Origin: Ruminococcus sp.
GTDB lineage: Bacteria > Bacillota > Clostridia > Oscillospirales > Ruminococcaceae
Direction: 5' to 3'
DNA length: 35,923 nucleotides
Assembly (NCBI GenBank): GCA_015066845.1
Contig: SVNO01000017.1
Span: 1-35,923, forward strand
Numbering within the stretch: position 1 is the first letter of the stretch; each line of letters opens with the position of its first letter. Under the pieces are notes generated by a model that was given only the letters and a program-made list of their open reading frames with translations, had not been told where the DNA came from and ran no database searches. The translations under genes were made by a program, and so were the position numbers. Of this stretch, positions 5,343 to 12,985 are shown one piece after another.

Positions 5343-7751
5343 TTATGCCAACACCATCCTTTTCAGAACCGCCAAATCAAACCCGTTCACGTTCCCATCC
5401 TCATGCAGCTGTGCCATAGCAAGCTGTGCGCCGGACAGGGACTTCTGTGCGAGAAGATACCGCTGGAGCAGAACAATATCTGCTACATTTACTTCACCAT
5501 TCAAATCCACATCCCCCCGCAGTACTGCCGCACCTGCAAGCACCTGACAAATCTCCGCAGTCTTGACCGTGCCGGCAGAATCCGTAATTTCTACGGAATA
5601 CAGACCTTTTTTCGCGCCGGTAATTGTCAGCGTTTCTCCCGTTTCTCCCTTGAGCAGTTCGCCGTCCAGATACCACTGGTAAGCCGGCTTGTCACAGGTA
5701 GTGCGCGCATTCAGTGTGAGCGATTCCGTTTCCGCAAGGTAAACCGTGCGCTTTGCCGAATATATGTTGAAATTCCCCTGCACCGTATATTCCGGCGCGG
5801 TAATGCTTGCCGCCTTTACCCAGCTGTTTGCCTCATCCTGAATCGTGACGCGGATGTTCTGCATGGTAACCCCCCGTTCCAGTCCCATCAGCTCGCCAAG
5901 CGGCAGCCGGAATTCTATTGTACTGCCGGAATTGCGCTGTACTACGCCATAGGGCATCCCCTGATTGTAATAGATAAAGCCGTTGCCCTGATAGTAGAGC
6001 CAGTAATTTTTGCCGTTGTCCTTGTTGTCAAAGCTCAGATTGAATACCGGCGCATCCGCCTTGTAGTCCAGCTCTGCCATGACATACAGGTACTTGTCGT
6101 CATTTGTCAGATACAGCGCATTTTCACCTTCCTGCGCATACCGGATGGCTTCTGCGCGTTCGGTCGCATTGCTGACTGCGCCATCCGTTGCTGCTGTGCC
6201 GTTGATGGTGTACATCTCCCCATCGGATGCCGGAAGTTCCTGTTCTGCGTTGATTTGCCGGAAACTGTCATCCGCGCGCGCGGCTGTATCGTCCGTTTCT
6301 GTGACAGTGAATGTGCCCAGATAATTTGCCCCCAGACCGGAATGCCATGTGCCCGTATTGGCAAATTTCACCGATCGCATGTGCATCTGGTCAAGCGTAT
6401 TGTCACCCGTGGAAAGCTTGAAATAGACGTTCCATTCTCCCGTTTCCAGACCGCCGGGGATGCGCAGCTGGAATTCCGGCTCTGCGGTGGTGCGTGAATA
6501 CCATGTCTTTGTGTTCACATCCACCTGCGTCCGGATGAAATTCCCGTCCTTTTCGAGCAGGATTTCGGGCTTTTGTGTCATAATGGGATTGGCAAAGCCG
6601 GTGTTTTCGATCTCTGCACGGACTGTCAGCACATCGCCCTGTTCCACCTGTGCGCTCAGGTCGCAGTCACGCACGACAAAGCGGTAGCCGATGTGGTCGC
6701 GCATGAATTTGTACACGGTCTGCCCGTAATACGCGCTGTTGTCCACATTGTCCACATCGTACTGCGCCCCGAACGTGTAGTCCTTGTAGAGCTGGTAGAT
6801 ATTGGAATTGATGTAGCTCAGGTGGGTTTTGTACATTTCCGGAATGGAATTCTGGGGGAGGTAGGTTTCGTACTGCATGGTAAATTCCAGATTGCCCGAA
6901 AATTCGCCGCCGAAATACGAGGTCAGGGCTTGTCTGCCCACCCAGCCGGTATCGCGTTCGCGGTTGTGGTAAGTGCCCAGATCAATGTCCGAGCCCATGT
7001 AGCCGTCATTGTACAGGCAGACGCGTGAAGCGTCACTGTCCGGTTCCGGCGTATAGGCGGCAAGGTCGTCCTCCGTGATGCCTGCCCATGTGGTAAAGGT
7101 CGGGGGAGTGCGGACGGTCACGGGGATGGGGGCAGGTACAGCGTCAAGAAGCAGGTCGAGCACACGCGCTTTTTGCTCAAAAGAGCAGAATTTTCCGCCC
7201 CAATGCTCACCCCATGAGCCGACAAAGCCGCTTTCCACAAAGGCAAGGATGTCCTTGTATTCCTCGAAAATACCGCTGTCCTTGATTTGCTGGATATGCG
7301 CTTCGATCTGGGCAAAGGTAGACGGTTCGGGGTCGAGCATTCCCACATCATCATAGCGGAAGCGCAGTGCAATGATGCAGCCATTTTTCCGGCAGTTGTC
7401 GAGAGTGACGCGGAGATTGCGGAAAAAGGTGTCATCGAGGTCGTAATCCTTTCCGGGGATATCATTCCCTTGGTCATCGGTTGTACCGTTGGAGCCGCTT
7501 GCAAATCCGCCGAGGTCCACGAGGATGAGCATGAGGCTGCCGGTCGGGTTGAAGATGGGTGTATCTCCGGGTGCAGCACTCATCCAGAGCGTAGAGGTAT
7601 AGCCTGCGCCGGGGTTGTTGATGGTTTCGGTGGATTCGGTGTAGTCGATGCCGGAATCCACAAGCGTTTCGCCGGCAGCGGTAATGGCAGGCATACCAGC
7701 CAGCCCGACCGCCGCAGCAAGGCAGAGTGCAAATGCTTTGGGTGCTTTCAT
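5343..7751 (-). CDS. Secreted DUF4874/DUF4832-like protein with dockerin
   Basis: 802 residues. A signal peptide (about 1-26, AALGLAG-type core ending in ITAAG) is followed by a DUF4874-like region (about 35-180; NNPGAGY, then ESGFVGSWGEHWGG), a DUF4832-like region (about 190-470), a DOMON/CBM9-like beta-sandwich (about 510-660), an Ig-like domain (about 665-740; YQWYLDGELL) and a type I dockerin (about 745-802). Dockerin loop 1 (DVDLNGEVNVAD) is canonical. Loop 2 starts with Gln/Leu instead of Asp (QLHEDGNVNGFD), so calcium binding there may be weak. Known: dockerins dock proteins to cohesins of cellulosomes or the cell surface. Inferred: a surface glycan-handling protein; catalytic activity is unproven. 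AGGAGG lies seven bases before the ATG. It is divergent from the NACHT gene. Confidence 0.8.
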   Translation of the reverse strand: MKAPKAFALCLAAAVGLAGMPAITAAGETLVDSGIDYTESTETINNPGAGYTSTLWMSAAPGDTPIFNPTGSLMLILVDLGGFASGSNGTTDDQGNDIPGKDYDLDDTFFRNLRVTLDNCRKNGCIIALRFRYDDVGMLDPEPSTFAQIEAHIQQIKDSGIFEEYKDILAFVESGFVGSWGEHWGGKFCSFEQKARVLDLLLDAVPAPIPVTVRTPPTFTTWAGITEDDLAAYTPEPDSDASRVCLYNDGYMGSDIDLGTYHNRERDTGWVGRQALTSYFGGEFSGNLEFTMQYETYLPQNSIPEMYKTHLSYINSNIYQLYKDYTFGAQYDVDNVDNSAYYGQTVYKFMRDHIGYRFVVRDCDLSAQVEQGDVLTVRAEIENTGFANPIMTQKPEILLEKDGNFIRTQVDVNTKTWYSRTTAEPEFQLRIPGGLETGEWNVYFKLSTGDNTLDQMHMRSVKFANTGTWHSGLGANYLGTFTVTETDDTAARADDSFRQINAEQELPASDGEMYTINGTAATDGAVSNATERAEAIRYAQEGENALYLTNDDKYLYVMAELDYKADAPVFNLSFDNKDNGKNYWLYYQGNGFIYYNQGMPYGVVQRNSGSTIEFRLPLGELMGLERGVTMQNIRVTIQDEANSWVKAASITAPEYTVQGNFNIYSAKRTVYLAETESLTLNARTTCDKPAYQWYLDGELLKGETGETLTITGAKKGLYSVEITDSAGTVKTAEICQVLAGAAVLRGDVDLNGEVNVADIVLLQRYLLAQKSLSGAQLAMAQLHEDGNVNGFDLAVLKRMVLA

Positions 7752-7774
7752 AAATAGAACCTCCTGTCATATTG

Positions 7775-7820
7775 GGGCACTACCGTACAGCTCCGCACCG
7801 TCCTTTATGCGGTATTGCCC
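7775..7820. repeat. Short inverted-repeat element (GGCANTACCG ends)
   Basis: GGGCACTACCG (7775-7785) and CGGTATTGCCC (7810-7820) pair with one mismatch. The same end sequence bounds 19844-19928, and GCGGTATTGCCCC occurs at 29542-29554. Here it lies in the untranslated leader of the dockerin gene. Confidence 0.5.
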
Positions 7821-7836
7821 TGAATCCGATAGTATG

Positions 7837-7845
7837 ATTGTAGCA
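7837..7845 (-). promoter_or_regulatory. Extended -10 promoter for the dockerin gene
   Basis: Minus-strand TGC-TACAAT (7845-7837) is an extended -10. No convincing -35 is seen. It would give a leader of roughly 80 bases carrying the inverted repeat at 7775-7820. Confidence 0.45.
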
Positions 7846-7907
7846 TATTTTGGGGGGAAATGATAGGGGGAATTTGTAAAGAATCGTATCTGAATGTACA
7901 ATGCACA

Positions 7908-7936
7908 TTGACACCCCTACTGAAACGTGGTATAAT
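7908..7936 (+). promoter_or_regulatory. Consensus promoter of the NACHT gene
   Basis: TTGACA at 7908-7913, 17-base spacer, TATAAT at 7931-7936. A vegetative, near-perfect promoter implies constant expression. No operator-like palindrome is seen around it. Confidence 0.88.
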
Positions 7937-7974
7937 GAGGATAGAAATATCTCGAAAAAGGAGGGATGGTGTCG

Positions 7975-10716
7975 ATGGGACGCAAAGAAAAAATTGCAGT
8001 TGCAAAAGCAATTGCAGCACTTTTTCAAATTCCAGCCGTGCCGGAGCTGATCGACCTTGAAAATGCACTATATAAAGCACTGACAGAACAGAGTGACCGT
8101 GAAAAATACAAAAGAAAATTATTGGAATCGCTTAAACAGCTTTCTCATAGTGAAAACCTCACAGACGCGCAGACCGATGCACTGAACAAAGCAATTGAAT
8201 GCCTGTTTAACGACATTGCTATTCTTGAATACTATCCGGATAATGCGGAGGGTTTGCTTGCCGAGCTGCAAACGCGCTTCAAGGAAGAAGATGGGGCTTT
8301 TCTCCATATCTGCGCGATAATTATCAATGCTTGCTTTGACAATATTTCACAAATACAGACTGCCGGTGCAATTGCTGCGCGTGGTGCTGTGCTGTCACAC
8401 GATGAGCATCAGGAACAGAATGCAGCACTGCAAAAACTGTTGGAACTCCTGCATGAAATACAGGATGCAGTGAAAACTCCCTTTACTCCCCCCACTTCCC
8501 CCACCCCCATATCCAACAACGACATTTACGAGAAACGATACAAAGCTCCCCTCTTTCTGGAAAGTGAAATCAAAGAAGAGGACAACAAAAGTGCAAGACT
8601 TCACAAGGTTTTTGTAGAACCGGCATTGTGCTCCCAAAGATGGGGTACTTTGCAGGATATGCTGCTCGACTGGATGGGCGAACCGGACGAGGATTCGGAT
8701 GAAGATACCATTGCAGACTATTCCATCCTCCTCCTCTATGGCAAAGCCGGTATCGGCAAGAGCAGCTATACCTCCAGAATCATTTCCGCGGTGGATGATG
8801 ACGGGAACAAGGTGTTCGGGGATTGCTGGCTTGCGCTGGAGCTGCGGCAGCATCATCTGGTATTTCATGCCCAGCACGCGTGGGATTCCATCAAGTATTG
8901 TTTTCAGTGTGAGAATGATGCGGCATATGCAAACCGCTGCCTCATTCTCGATGGTCTGGACGAGGTGCGTGTGCTCCATCCGGATTTTGATGCCGTCACA
9001 TTTCTCAACAGCTTACAGGAGGAAACCGCGCTCAAAATGTACAATATCAAAATCCTGATTACTTCCCGTGAGGGATATTTTGAGGACGATGAACTGTACA
9101 GCAGAAACCTGCGTACTGCCTATATTCAGTGGGGCGATGAACAGCTGGAAGAATGGTGCGGCAAATACTGTAACATTCACAAAATCCGTGAAGATTGGAA
9201 AGAGAAATTCCTTGCTGATTTCAGGGAGCTTGCGGAAGATGACAAACGCCGTGACATTTTCTGCATTCCGATGATTCTCTATCTCTGCTGTGTGCGTTCG
9301 ATCGAGATTGCCGAAAATAAAAGCGTGGTGGATATTTACGAAAAGGCATTCCGTGAAATCGGCAGCCGTAGACACCATACCTCCACCGCAATGCAGGAAT
9401 CGGACGAGCGCACATTTTCCGCCAACTGGGAATTCACCAAGGAGCTTGCGTACCGGATTTTTCTGGATGAAGAAGTGACCGTGTTGGGGGATGAGGGCAT
9501 CGGGGAAGCCAAAAAGAAAACCAAACTGAAATACCCCGAATGCGAACCGGAATTATCGCGATACTTTGCGATTTTCCCTTTTGCATCCGACACGGCAGAG
9601 GGCATGGAATTTGCCCACAAGACCGTGACGGAGTATTTTACGGCGGTCAAGCTCTATGAGGACTATTTCGAGGACTGCAATTCGCCGGAAAGCTTCTGGG
9701 AGAACGTATGGAGCGCATTCCGCTATAAAGATATGCCCGATGATGTGATAGCGATGCTTGTACAGCTCATCGAAAGCCGACAGGGGGAACATCTTGCAGC
9801 ATGGCGTGCATCATTCTTTGCCTGCTATTACGAGGGTGTCAAGCGGCAGTGTATCTGGATGTGCCTGAGTCCACCGGAATATGTGTGCAGGATGCTGTAT
9901 TCCCAGCTGCCGCATCAGGTTGGGCTGTCGTTTCGGAATCTGACGCGTCTGTTGTCGCGCTTGGGGTATGAGAATCGGGAGCGTAAGCCGGAGGATGCAG
10001 TGGATAAGGACTATGCTATGGGGCTTTCAGCACTTTTTCCGCGTGGCATAGTGATGGATGTCAGATGTGATGGCTGGAAGGGATTCCGGAACGTTAATTT
10101 GCGTGGTGCTGTTTTGATATATGCTCATTTGCATGATGCTGATTTGCGTGATGCTGATTTGCGTGGTGCTGATTTGCGTCATGCTCATTTGTGTGATGCT
10201 GATTTGCATGATGCTGATTTGCGTGATGCTGATTTGCATGAGGCTGATTTGAGTTTTGCTGATTTGCATGATGCTGATTTGCGTGATGCTGATTTGAGTT
10301 TTGCTGACTTGACGGATGCTGATTTGCGTGATGCATATTTGACGGATGCTGATTTGCGCCGTGCTGTTTTGATGGTTGCTGATTTGCGCCGTGCTTATTT
10401 GAATGATGCTGATTTGAGTGGTGCTGATTTGACGGATGCTGATTTGTGTGGTGCTCGTTTGTGTGGTGCTGATTTGCGTGATGCAAATTTGACGGAGGCT
10501 GATTTGACGGAGGCTGATTTGTGCCGTGCTGATTTGCGTGGTGCTTCCTGGTCATTCGGACAAGAGCTTCATGACATTCAACTGTACGACACCGACCTTC
10601 CCCAACTGGATGAAGCAATCGAAAAATACGGAATCCAATTGATTGAGCCCCGTGTCGTTTCCACAGAAACAGGAAAATACCTCCACTACAACCCCGAAAC
10701 CAACCGCGCCGAATAA
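7975..10716 (+). CDS. NACHT-type STAND NTPase with pentapeptide-repeat C-terminus
   Basis: 913 residues, no signal peptide. Residues 1-165 are all-helical and match no effector domain I recognise; a Pro-rich linker follows. The NACHT NTPase has Walker A GKAGIGKSS at 256-264, Walker B LILDGLDE at 323-330, the sensor ITSRE at 362-366 and the winged-helix signature FAHKTVTEYFTA near 546-557. Residues about 707-862 are some 30 tandem A(D/N)LXX pentapeptides, a predicted right-handed beta-helix, then a 55-residue cap. Known: STAND NTPases oligomerise when the C-terminal sensor meets a ligand, and bacterial NACHT proteins can protect against phage. Inferred: defence or stress sensor, the repeats serving as sensor. 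The ATG at 7975 is preferred because AAGGAGGG is 9 bases upstream; the ATG at 7966 touches that site. It is monocistronic, between two divergent or convergent dockerin genes. Confidence 0.88.
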   Translation: MGRKEKIAVAKAIAALFQIPAVPELIDLENALYKALTEQSDREKYKRKLLESLKQLSHSENLTDAQTDALNKAIECLFNDIAILEYYPDNAEGLLAELQTRFKEEDGAFLHICAIIINACFDNISQIQTAGAIAARGAVLSHDEHQEQNAALQKLLELLHEIQDAVKTPFTPPTSPTPISNNDIYEKRYKAPLFLESEIKEEDNKSARLHKVFVEPALCSQRWGTLQDMLLDWMGEPDEDSDEDTIADYSILLLYGKAGIGKSSYTSRIISAVDDDGNKVFGDCWLALELRQHHLVFHAQHAWDSIKYCFQCENDAAYANRCLILDGLDEVRVLHPDFDAVTFLNSLQEETALKMYNIKILITSREGYFEDDELYSRNLRTAYIQWGDEQLEEWCGKYCNIHKIREDWKEKFLADFRELAEDDKRRDIFCIPMILYLCCVRSIEIAENKSVVDIYEKAFREIGSRRHHTSTAMQESDERTFSANWEFTKELAYRIFLDEEVTVLGDEGIGEAKKKTKLKYPECEPELSRYFAIFPFASDTAEGMEFAHKTVTEYFTAVKLYEDYFEDCNSPESFWENVWSAFRYKDMPDDVIAMLVQLIESRQGEHLAAWRASFFACYYEGVKRQCIWMCLSPPEYVCRMLYSQLPHQVGLSFRNLTRLLSRLGYENRERKPEDAVDKDYAMGLSALFPRGIVMDVRCDGWKGFRNVNLRGAVLIYAHLHDADLRDADLRGADLRHAHLCDADLHDADLRDADLHEADLSFADLHDADLRDADLSFADLTDADLRDAYLTDADLRRAVLMVADLRRAYLNDADLSGADLTDADLCGARLCGADLRDANLTEADLTEADLCRADLRGASWSFGQELHDIQLYDTDLPQLDEAIEKYGIQLIEPRVVSTETGKYLHYNPETNRAE
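10096..10560 (+). repeat. Tandem 15-base pentapeptide-coding repeats
   Basis: About 30 in-frame 15-base units with consensus GATTTGCGTGATGCT. Codons are strikingly uniform (GAT, TTG, GCT) and differ from the flanking parts of the gene, which favour GCA/GCG and CTG/CTT. This suggests recent expansion by slippage or unequal recombination. Confidence 0.9.
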
Positions 10717-10723
10717 AACCCAA

Positions 10724-10752
10724 GCCGCCGGCTTTGTGCCGGCGGCTTTTTC
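10724..10752 (+). terminator. Terminator of the NACHT gene
   Basis: AGCCGCCGGC, loop TTTGT, GCCGGCGGCT, then TTTTT, starting 8 bases after the stop codon. The convergent peptidase gene ends at 10787; on its strand the tail is only GGGTTTTA, so use in that direction is weak. Confidence 0.9.
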
Positions 10753-10786: not shown

Positions 10787-12985
10787 TTAATACGCCCCAT
10801 TCTCCGCTGCATACATCAGGATTGTCGCTGCATCCCCTGCATCTGCCACGCCGTTGTAGTTGAAATCGGCGCGGCAGAGCCAGTTTTCATCCGGAAGTGC
10901 AGGGGGATTGCCCGTGCCAACTGCGGCGGCATAGGTCAGAACTGCGGCTGCGTCCAGTGCGGTGTACTGTCCGTCCATGTCCACATCACCGTGAACCAAG
11001 GAAAGGTCAAAGGGTACAATGTGAATGCGGTAGGTCGATGCATTCATCCCCTCACCCGATGCCACCAGCTCCAGCGTGGTTTCACCATTGCAGGAAATGC
11101 GCTGTGTTTCGCCATTTGTGATGGGCTGTCCGTTACAGGTGAGAGTGGCATTGCTGAACAGCTTCAAATCCGCGCGCATGAGCTGCTCCAGATTGAATGC
11201 CTCGATTTCCGCTTCATACTCACGCTCCCCGACCTCGACAAAATCCGTGCCGTACAGCAGATAATCGCCGTTTTCAAATGCAAGCTGGAGCTTGATGTCG
11301 TACATCTCTGCTTCACGCACGGTATAGCTCTGCTCATAAACCGTGCCCTCCTCGCAGTATGCGGAAATCTTCATATCCTCTGTGAATGTAATGGGCTTTG
11401 TGTAGGGCTTGTACGCGCCGCCGTTCACGGCATAGTACACCTGTCTGCCGTCAGGATTCGTCAGCTCGATGGTATCACCGATGCACAGCGTATCGCTCAG
11501 TTTCGAGAACTGCACATTCGCCTTGCTCACGCTCAGCGCGGTGATACATGCCGCGCCGAAGTGCTCCGTCGTTTCATGCAGATATTCCAGACCATCGTCA
11601 TGCATCGCAGTAAAGGAATCCTTGATGTCCATGGAATAGGTGTCCACCCAGTTTTCACCGTCCAGACAGAGGAAGCTGCAATTCGGGGCATGGTCAGCGG
11701 GTATTGCATAATACTCCGTTGTGACACTGCCGTCCGGTGCGGTTTCTGTTGCCATGGTGTCATATTCAACGAAAACATGGCTTGCATAGGGGTCGCCGGT
11801 CTGTGTGACAACTACGGCATAGGTTTCGCCTGCTGCCACGGATACGGGAGCTGACAGCTCCGCGGTAATCTGTCCGACAGAGGAAATGCTGCCCTCTGCG
11901 GTCGCTGCAAGTGCACCGGAAGTGGGATCGAGAGGGTTTGTGAGATCCTTGTACACGGAAACGCTGTAGGCATCGTTGTCCCAGTCCGTGCGGAATGTGA
12001 CCGCAGTGACAAGGGTGTCCGTTTCTGCTGTGAACAGGTTCGCCATTGCGCCGGATTCATGCGCTGTATCGTCAGGCAATGTATAACCTATGCAAGTTCC
12101 GAGGTCGTAGCTGTGTACATCGTCATACAGCTGCGCCGGTACTGCGGAAAATCCCATTACATCGCAATTTTCCTGCTCATAGGAAATCCAGTAGTAGCCG
12201 TTGTCGCAGAATACGCTTGACCAGCTGCTCTTTGCAAGCCACGCGCCATCGCTGGAGGGCTGTTCCTTGAAATACTCTTTGGGGAAATTGTCATCCCAGC
12301 CGACAATGGTCACGGCATGGGGGGAGGATTGCTCGTCCACTATCTCTGCCGGAAGGTAATAGGAATTGTGCGTGTGATCCACATAAGCGTCATTGCTTGT
12401 ATAAGAATAGCAGAGTGCGCCGCCCTGATAGAGATACTCCTTGACGCGGCTGCACTGCTCTGCATAGTCCTCATCCTCCTGAAAAAGCGAGAACTGCACC
12501 ACATCCGTTATCAGATAATCGGATTCACCGTAGGGGTCAGTATCGGATTCCGAATCGTCAGATCCGAAAAAAACACCGTAGGGGAAGTTCGATTCCTTCG
12601 TCAGTCCCTTTCTGCGTGAAAGCAAATCCAGCGTAGCATCATAATTGTAACCGCCATCAAGGAATGTAAAGAAATCGCTGACATTACCATTCCGGTATTC
12701 GCTGAGGTAGCAGCTGTAGATGAGATACCATTCGGAAATATCCACCTGCGGGTCATAGGGAAGCAGGGATTGTTCCAGAGAGCCTGCCATGGCGTGTGCC
12801 CAGCATGTACCATAATCCCCTTGATCGCGCACGGGAGTGACCATTCTGCTGCCGCGCGGGTCGTAGGATGCAGGCAGGGCAGATTCTGCCGCTGCGGTGT
12901 GGATGGTCGTTTCTGTAAAGGTGGCTGTGCCAGTCAGCAGCATAGCAGCTGCGAGAATACCTGCTGTAAGTTTTACTGTTTTCAT
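10787..12985 (-). CDS. Secreted papain-like (C1A) cysteine peptidase with dockerin
   Basis: 732 residues. A signal peptide (about 1-33) is followed by a C1A peptidase domain (40-290): oxyanion Gln55 in VRDQG, nucleophile Cys61 in GTCWAH, His223 in SSPHAVTIVGW. The usual catalytic Asn of KNSW is replaced by Ser253 (KSSW). A lectin-like beta-sandwich often paired with bacterial C1A enzymes follows (about 305-420), then a chitobiase-C-like segment (about 490-555) and a dockerin (about 665-732) with loops DVDMDGQYTALD and DFNYNGVADAGD. Known: dockerin-bearing proteases occur in ruminococcal cellulosome systems. Inferred: a surface-docked protease, possibly of altered activity given the Asn-to-Ser change. 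GGAGGT lies before the ATG at 12985. Confidence 0.88.
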   Translation of the reverse strand: MKTVKLTAGILAAAMLLTGTATFTETTIHTAAAESALPASYDPRGSRMVTPVRDQGDYGTCWAHAMAGSLEQSLLPYDPQVDISEWYLIYSCYLSEYRNGNVSDFFTFLDGGYNYDATLDLLSRRKGLTKESNFPYGVFFGSDDSESDTDPYGESDYLITDVVQFSLFQEDEDYAEQCSRVKEYLYQGGALCYSYTSNDAYVDHTHNSYYLPAEIVDEQSSPHAVTIVGWDDNFPKEYFKEQPSSDGAWLAKSSWSSVFCDNGYYWISYEQENCDVMGFSAVPAQLYDDVHSYDLGTCIGYTLPDDTAHESGAMANLFTAETDTLVTAVTFRTDWDNDAYSVSVYKDLTNPLDPTSGALAATAEGSISSVGQITAELSAPVSVAAGETYAVVVTQTGDPYASHVFVEYDTMATETAPDGSVTTEYYAIPADHAPNCSFLCLDGENWVDTYSMDIKDSFTAMHDDGLEYLHETTEHFGAACITALSVSKANVQFSKLSDTLCIGDTIELTNPDGRQVYYAVNGGAYKPYTKPITFTEDMKISAYCEEGTVYEQSYTVREAEMYDIKLQLAFENGDYLLYGTDFVEVGEREYEAEIEAFNLEQLMRADLKLFSNATLTCNGQPITNGETQRISCNGETTLELVASGEGMNASTYRIHIVPFDLSLVHGDVDMDGQYTALDAAAVLTYAAAVGTGNPPALPDENWLCRADFNYNGVADAGDAATILMYAAENGAY

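Follow-up and report, generated by a model that had tools for sequence, protein, structure and literature searches.

A NACHT/STAND protein with a C-terminal pentapeptide array in Ruminococcus, probably a single-gene immune receptor from a rare family

Bacterial NACHT (bNACHT) proteins consist of an N-terminal effector, a central NACHT domain and a C-terminal sensor, and the core oligomerises upon trigger, according to the accessible part of PMC12169576. The bNACHT proteins named in that part bear SNaCT or NCH1 C-termini, and the word pentapeptide is absent from the text of the paper. The NACHT-pentapeptide architecture is already known in cyanobacteria, where the available text of PMC3501461 describes metacaspase-NACHT-pentapeptide-WD40 proteins. 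NACHT and pentapeptide domains are also listed in cyanobacterial caspase homologues (accessible parts of PMC2853523 and PMC7475262), and pentapeptide and STAND domains are listed in conflict systems (accessible parts of PMC7159879, PMC8195603 and PMC10853773). In the literature searched, i.e., titles and the starts of abstracts with subscription papers mostly outside, no NACHT, NLR or STAND receptor with a pentapeptide array is described as antiphage.

Here, we describe a protein of this architecture in a stretch of 35,923 nucleotides from the gut bacterium Ruminococcus sp., hereafter the window. We suggest that it is probably a single-gene STAND (NLR-like) immune receptor, in which the pentapeptide beta-helix senses and the N-terminus acts. 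Like bNACHT02, 12, 25 and 32, as presented in the accessible part of PMC12169576, it is encoded by one gene and combines a NACHT core with a presumed N-terminal effector and a presumed C-terminal sensor. However, its C-terminus is made of pentapeptides, and there is no SNaCT- or NCH1-named family among the eight families listed for it or among 25 of the 62 for 16 members of its family. It shares the order NACHT then pentapeptides with the cyanobacterial proteins in the available text of PMC3501461 but has neither metacaspase nor WD40 in its Pfam list. Pentapeptide repeats and STAND NTPases also occur in the variable TRADD-N/VMAP conflict systems; there, these domains are alternative partners, and a NACHT-pentapeptide receptor is not described in the accessible text of PMC7159879 and PMC8195603. 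None of the 5027 PADLOC models gives a family for the protein at E <=1, so NACHT-pentapeptide genes are missed by the PADLOC library. The features of the locus are as follows.

7893..7909, no strand assigned: 17-bp near-palindrome AATGTACAATGCACATT (7 of 8 pairs), overlapping the -35 box, possible operator
7908..7936, + strand: sigma-70-type promoter TTGACA-17-TATAAT with TG preceding the -10 box, 12 of 12 consensus matches
7960..7965, + strand: ribosome-binding site GGAGGG, from the sequence; ATG 7975 lies 9 nt downstream
7975..10716, + strand: NACHT/STAND-pentapeptide gene, 913 aa, intact (open reading frame, Pfam, alignment, core profile)
7975..8490, + strand: N-terminal module (residues 1-172), putative effector; matches no library model over cut-off
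8740..8763, + strand: Walker A GKAGIGKS, residues 256-263; G256, G261 and K262 invariant in 16 proteins
8941..8964, + strand: Walker B, residues 323-330, with LDGLDE at residues 325-330; D326, G327, D329 and E330 invariant
9061..9069, + strand: TSR sensor motif, residues 363-365; T363 and R365 invariant
9610..9639, + strand: winged-helix-type motif FAHKTVTEYF, residues 546-555; F546 and H548 invariant
10093..10542, + strand: array of 30 unbroken pentapeptides, residues 707-856, presumed sensor beta-helix (Pfam, repeat analyses)
10543..10716, + strand: C-terminal tail past the array, residues 857-913 and stop (alignment); YNPETNRAE is common to the same-genus relative G008
10722..10748, listed on the - strand only: G+C-rich hairpin between convergent genes

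The open frame spans 7966-10716 (916 codons), and the position of the ribosome-binding site makes ATG 7975 the likely start, which gives the 913 aa of the original prediction. The strong promoter of that prediction is also confirmed; the region has seven promoter-like sites versus a mean of 4.2 weaker ones in shuffles. With the near-palindrome over its -35 box, this promoter could be subject to repression instead of being constitutive; the signal is weak, its score being equalled in 4.8% of 2000 Markov resamples (chance ~0.05). The hairpin past the stop codon is likely a terminator common to both convergent genes.

The NACHT core contains the motifs that characterise the STAND/NACHT clade, i.e., Walker A, an LDGLDE-type Walker B, TSR and a winged-helix motif with a histidine. 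All the motifs named in the original prediction are thus in place, with its SRE lying within TSRE (residues 363-366). The FAHKTVTEYF motif is presumably located in the winged helix, as in NLRs. Besides the residues marked above, P432 is invariant in the full-length alignment of 16 proteins, and 13 residues are invariant in the alignment of the 16 cores. In the window protein, the Pfam model NPHP3_N, a STAND-type NTPase model, is over its cut-off (E 2.9e-7, 31.3 bits versus 24.8), and NACHT is under its curated cut-off (E 0.0046, 17.2 bits versus 26.7); NACHT is matched at E <=1 by all 16 members scanned, at best with 7.4e-11. A profile built from the 16 core regions, with the array excluded, was searched against solved structures. 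Its best matches are NLRP3 (2.4e-8) and NLRC4 (4.3e-8), the latter spanning profile positions 9-377 of 510, and these matches back the assignment as a NACHT core.

Pentapeptide arrays fold as a beta-helix, which is also expected here. About 30 repeats had been predicted in the window protein, and exactly 30 are counted without a break; 29 of them begin with A, and all have L as their third residue. The Pfam Pentapeptide model matches with E 3e-52 (174 bits versus a cut-off of 20.2), and each of the 16 family proteins scanned has a match at E <=1. The array also matches pentapeptide proteins of solved structure (designed beta1, All3740); these two, like Qnr and MfpA, are stand-alone pentapeptide proteins, while the window array is joined to a NACHT core. 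At the DNA level, the array is a tandem repeat with a period of 15 bp, 29.9 copies and 75% matching, and its length varies from 13 to 41 repeats across 16 proteins. Varied length together with repeat DNA that could slip fits a recognition surface, and by analogy with the STAND class we presume that the array senses. In five relatives (L017, L018, L019, L020 and L021), a tail of the type FxPxxHxxIExDxxGxP is conserved after arrays of unequal length; it is perhaps a cap or a part of the sensor.

The array of the window protein is strongly acidic, with a net charge of -22 over 150 aa, i.e., -15 per 100 aa, but in 15 relatives the charge per 100 aa ranges from -11 to +5. It is therefore unlikely that one DNA-mimic principle governs the 16 arrays, and mimicry of DNA, which the original prediction had proposed as the sensing principle, is rejected as a trait of the family. 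The charge also bears on another reading, in which it is the array that acts, as a DNA mimic similar to Qnr or MfpA; held by the NACHT core, it would be exposed on activation and block gyrase or another DNA-binding protein, while the N-terminus senses. The acidity in the window and the matches to solved pentapeptide proteins are in its favour, and the fast divergence of the N-terminus, described below, would also suit a sensor at that end. However, the acidity is not kept in the relatives, the Qnr and MfpA models are far under their cut-offs on the window protein (43 and 47.8 bits versus 240 and 360), and sensing is C-terminal in the usual STAND layout, as given in the accessible part of PMC12169576. 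We find an acting array very improbable.

The N-terminal module, which by reading appears to be all-helical, is possibly a new effector. Nothing in Pfam, NCBIfam or PADLOC matches it over cut-off, a weak NCBIfam match being N_to_GlyXaaXaa (15.7 bits versus 40). Searching the N-terminal profile against PDB sequences returns designed bundles and coiled coils only, with a best E of 0.0072. A membrane-inserting helix is unsupported, as the most hydrophobic stretch of 19 residues scores 1.53, less than the 1.93 found in the protein's own core.

Across the family, the N-terminus changes in kind or past recognition above a common core. The N-termini of 14 of the 17 family proteins were compared in eight groups defined by core kinship, leaving out L014, L022 and L023 with their short N-termini. 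None of the 28 pairs of groups is detectably related (probabilities 0-0.7%, some of the profiles being weak ones of one or two sequences), whereas with the same method and groups (L023 replacing L030 in one) 27 of 28 pairs of cores reach 95.9-100% and one 33%. A common N-terminal domain thus finds no support. The difference can be large between close cores: L023 and L024 are 49.8% identical in the core and have N-termini of 48 and 211 aa, and of L019 and L020 (45.4%), only the former has a ribbon rich in cysteine together with a hydrophobic stretch rich in glycine. The window protein and its relative G008 are 52% identical in the core and 21% in the aligned N-termini.

BLAST at E 0.01 joins the N-termini of only three pairs (L018/L021, L017/L019 and L025/L027); it joins neither the window protein with G008 nor the second copy of the window genome, C62, with L028, although the cores in each of these pairs are sisters. 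A full-length BLAST alignment of G351 and C62 begins at residues 81 and 60, and together with the joined pairs this means that the helical N-termini may share a remote origin. As the N-terminus diverges fast even between sisters, exchange and rapid change are not separable for the long helical-looking ones, and fast divergence may account for much of the variety.

The family, which we call NACHT-PRP, consists of 17 distinct proteins including that of the window, each with a C-terminal array (degenerate in L022). Searches with the core only gave L017-L025, L027, L028 and matches in the genomes G385, G500 and G886; the window protein, C62 and G008 complete the set, and duplicates were merged by length and sequence (L016 with the G008 locus, L021 with G351 and L022 with G115). 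The second copy in the window genome, on contig C62 (L004, 7419-9929), has 836 aa, and G008 is a 44% relative of the window protein from the same genus. Several further candidates are not counted in the family. Weak profile matches (L026, L031-L034 and L065) have no array in their visible part, L032, L033, L034 and L065 being cut by the end of the locus. The distant match L064 has NACHT and a short pentapeptide run followed by a long further C-terminus, and a match in G005 is PriA-like by reading and not kin.

The family is rare. Within the genus, it is present in the window genome and in one of 36 others, many of them incomplete. Counting the own genome, the rates are 2 of 61 relatives, 3 of 297 genomes in the taxonomic family, 3 of 394 in the order (1e-10), 6 of 391 in the class (1e-8; two of the six are array-bearing) and 3 of 398 in the phylum (1e-12), all being lower bounds, as the larger searches scored up to three candidates per genome, and drawn from overlapping samples. 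For the C62 copy, the G008 protein is the sole array-bearing match in 60 other genomes, a first scan of genome contigs gave no match, and 72,556 plasmid and 50,697 phage records contain no family match. In the tree, where six inner branches are open and the deep branches weak, the window protein and G008 form a pair (100/100) inside a seven-member group (97/97) that spans four of the N-terminal groups. The C62 copy is the sister of the prophage-borne L028 (100/99).

The surroundings were read at 15 loci with flanks, with selected neighbours scanned; L022 and L070 are too short to judge. Six of the 15 have mobile or defence marks. A relaxase with NikA/MobC nearby is found at L018 and L069, the latter also with a tRNA-Leu adjoining the gene; L024 has ArdC; L027 has an anti-repressor, a tape measure protein and a primase. 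L028 (5704-10094, IMG/VR) is on a prophage-like contig with an endolysin and a holin directly upstream and a tail fibre, and the spot behind endolysin and holin is a usual place of prophage accessory genes. At L020, neighbours match the PADLOC models PDC-M62A (6e-73), PDC-M62B (1.5e-51) and PDC-S01 (1e-147), i.e., a cluster of defence candidates. The context of L023, with a GmrSD_N protein resembling that of L024, is doubtful, and no mark was seen at the other eight loci (window, C62, G008, L017, L019, L021, L025 and L071), the window gene, G008 and C62 having ordinary genes around them. A neighbour of L019 (3756-6473; PADLOC mad3, 1.2e-51) reads as a tandem ABC-transporter ATPase and is not counted as defence. 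Elsewhere, the C62 copy is divergent from adjoining WYL-domain genes, L071 adjoins a tRNA-Trp, and directly upstream of L017 (3553-7158) lies a protein of 1201 aa that neither Pfam nor PADLOC matches at E 0.01.

In the window itself, the gene stands between dockerin-type genes on the other strand: upstream, a DUF4832 dockerin-bearing protein (5343-7751), whose dockerin end has many matches in the genus, and downstream, a papain-like peptidase with a lectin-like domain and a dockerin marginally under cut-off (10787-12985). Of the 20 open reading frames scanned with Pfam, five are unmatched and the others are metabolic, dockerin, kinase, permease and repair-type genes; no mobile-element genes were seen among the 20. 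PADLOC matches of window neighbours were deemed generic: DndA (1.5e-6) is a serine hydroxymethyltransferase, IetA (5e-6) an MgsA-type ATPase and PDC-M43B (1.2e-5) a histidine kinase. Nineteen of 38 genomes of the genus, its own included, contain a near-full-length match of the DUF4832 neighbour, and the downstream neighbour has matches of just 29-38% outside its own copy. Four DUF4832 loci were examined as possible empty sites; none keeps the gene order around the window gene, so no insertion site can be demonstrated.

The defence context expected in the original prediction is thus found in part, at prophage and mobilizable loci and one defence-candidate locus among the relatives, but not around the window gene, which has housekeeping and dockerin genes and no defence island. 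At the same time, homologues do not sit in a fixed housekeeping context. None of the genes next to G008, the sole relative found in the genus, recurs in the window, and the same holds for the C62 and G351 loci, except for one match of dockerin length (56 aa) in G351. Rarity and marks at six of 15 loci, the outcome of the search for homologues and their neighbours that the prediction called for, are only suggestive of a role in defence.

STAND proteins also regulate transcription (MalT), to judge from sources seen in part, and the window gene could encode a host signalling or transcription regulator similar to MalT or AfsR, with an array that binds a host partner. Flanking host dockerin and housekeeping genes and the near-consensus promoter speak for such a regulator. 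Nevertheless, there is no helix-turn-helix family among the eight listed for the window protein or among 25 of the 62 for the 16 members, 35 of the 36 other genomes of the genus (many incomplete) have no match, and relatives reside on prophages and mobilizable elements. This makes a host regulator rather unlikely.

The same mobile contexts (L027, L028, L018 and L069), and the kinship of the C62 copy with a prophage copy, would also suit a gene by which mobile elements enforce addiction or exclusion (superinfection exclusion, plasmid competition), one copy of which is now left stranded in the window genome. This differs from the immune receptor in the beneficiary, not in the working. It is quite unlikely for the window gene, as this copy is intact, has a full-strength promoter and, as described, lies among scanned genes with none from an element. 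Returning to the immune receptor, the recurrence of relatives in prophages and mobile elements indicates that the window protein is probably a phage-sensing cell-defence protein.

We propose a mechanism modelled on the STAND class, which supplies the nucleotide switch, the oligomerisation, the sensing direction and the lethal output. At rest, a NACHT-PRP protein would be monomeric, its NACHT core loaded with ADP. The pentapeptide beta-helix, together with the tail, would bind a molecule derived from or altered by the invader. The bound core would then swap its nucleotide and oligomerise, which would gather the N-terminal modules. The gathered N-termini would kill or arrest the cell ahead of the spread of the phage or element, so that the output is probably cell death or arrest.

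One member of the family may have a different front end. In L023, from Lachnospiraceae, a small upstream gene (7457-7831) carries the SATVxATQNN motif that is also found in the N-terminus of the NACHT-pentapeptide gene (7842-9779). The two copies are identical at 12 of 19 positions (E 5e-5 in a single comparison chosen by eye; score 53 versus 50 for the best of 2000 shuffles). The two proteins are a candidate amyloid-like signalling pair, similar to the BASS/Bell amyloid NLRs in the accessible parts of PMC7889193 and PMC8086366 in that the N-terminal motif is common to a neighbour-encoded protein. However, the motif of the partner is C-terminal in Bell, according to the same parts of these papers, and N-terminal in the partner of L023. 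For the window gene, with its N-terminus of 172 aa and dockerin proteins on the other strand as neighbours, no BASS-type motif or partner was found by reading.

It can be speculated, with less confidence than the receptor role itself, that the family is an undescribed, mobile class of bacterial NLRs whose recognition surface is a pentapeptide beta-helix that can vary in length, in place of leucine-rich, TPR or WD40 repeats. Slippage of the repeat DNA would tune the sensing, and front ends of three or more kinds would plug into one core: long modules that look helical, a cysteine ribbon accompanied by a hydrophobic segment rich in glycine, and short amyloid-like motifs that go with a partner gene.

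Many pentapeptide-repeat proteins have no known role. If the family senses phage by its pentapeptides, this would be a new job for the repeat, and the single-gene receptor would be a tractable one. A further consequence would be that front-end variation above one core, in the style of NLRs, exists in gut Firmicutes and their prophages, together with a recognition surface that is able to change its length in steps of 15 bp.
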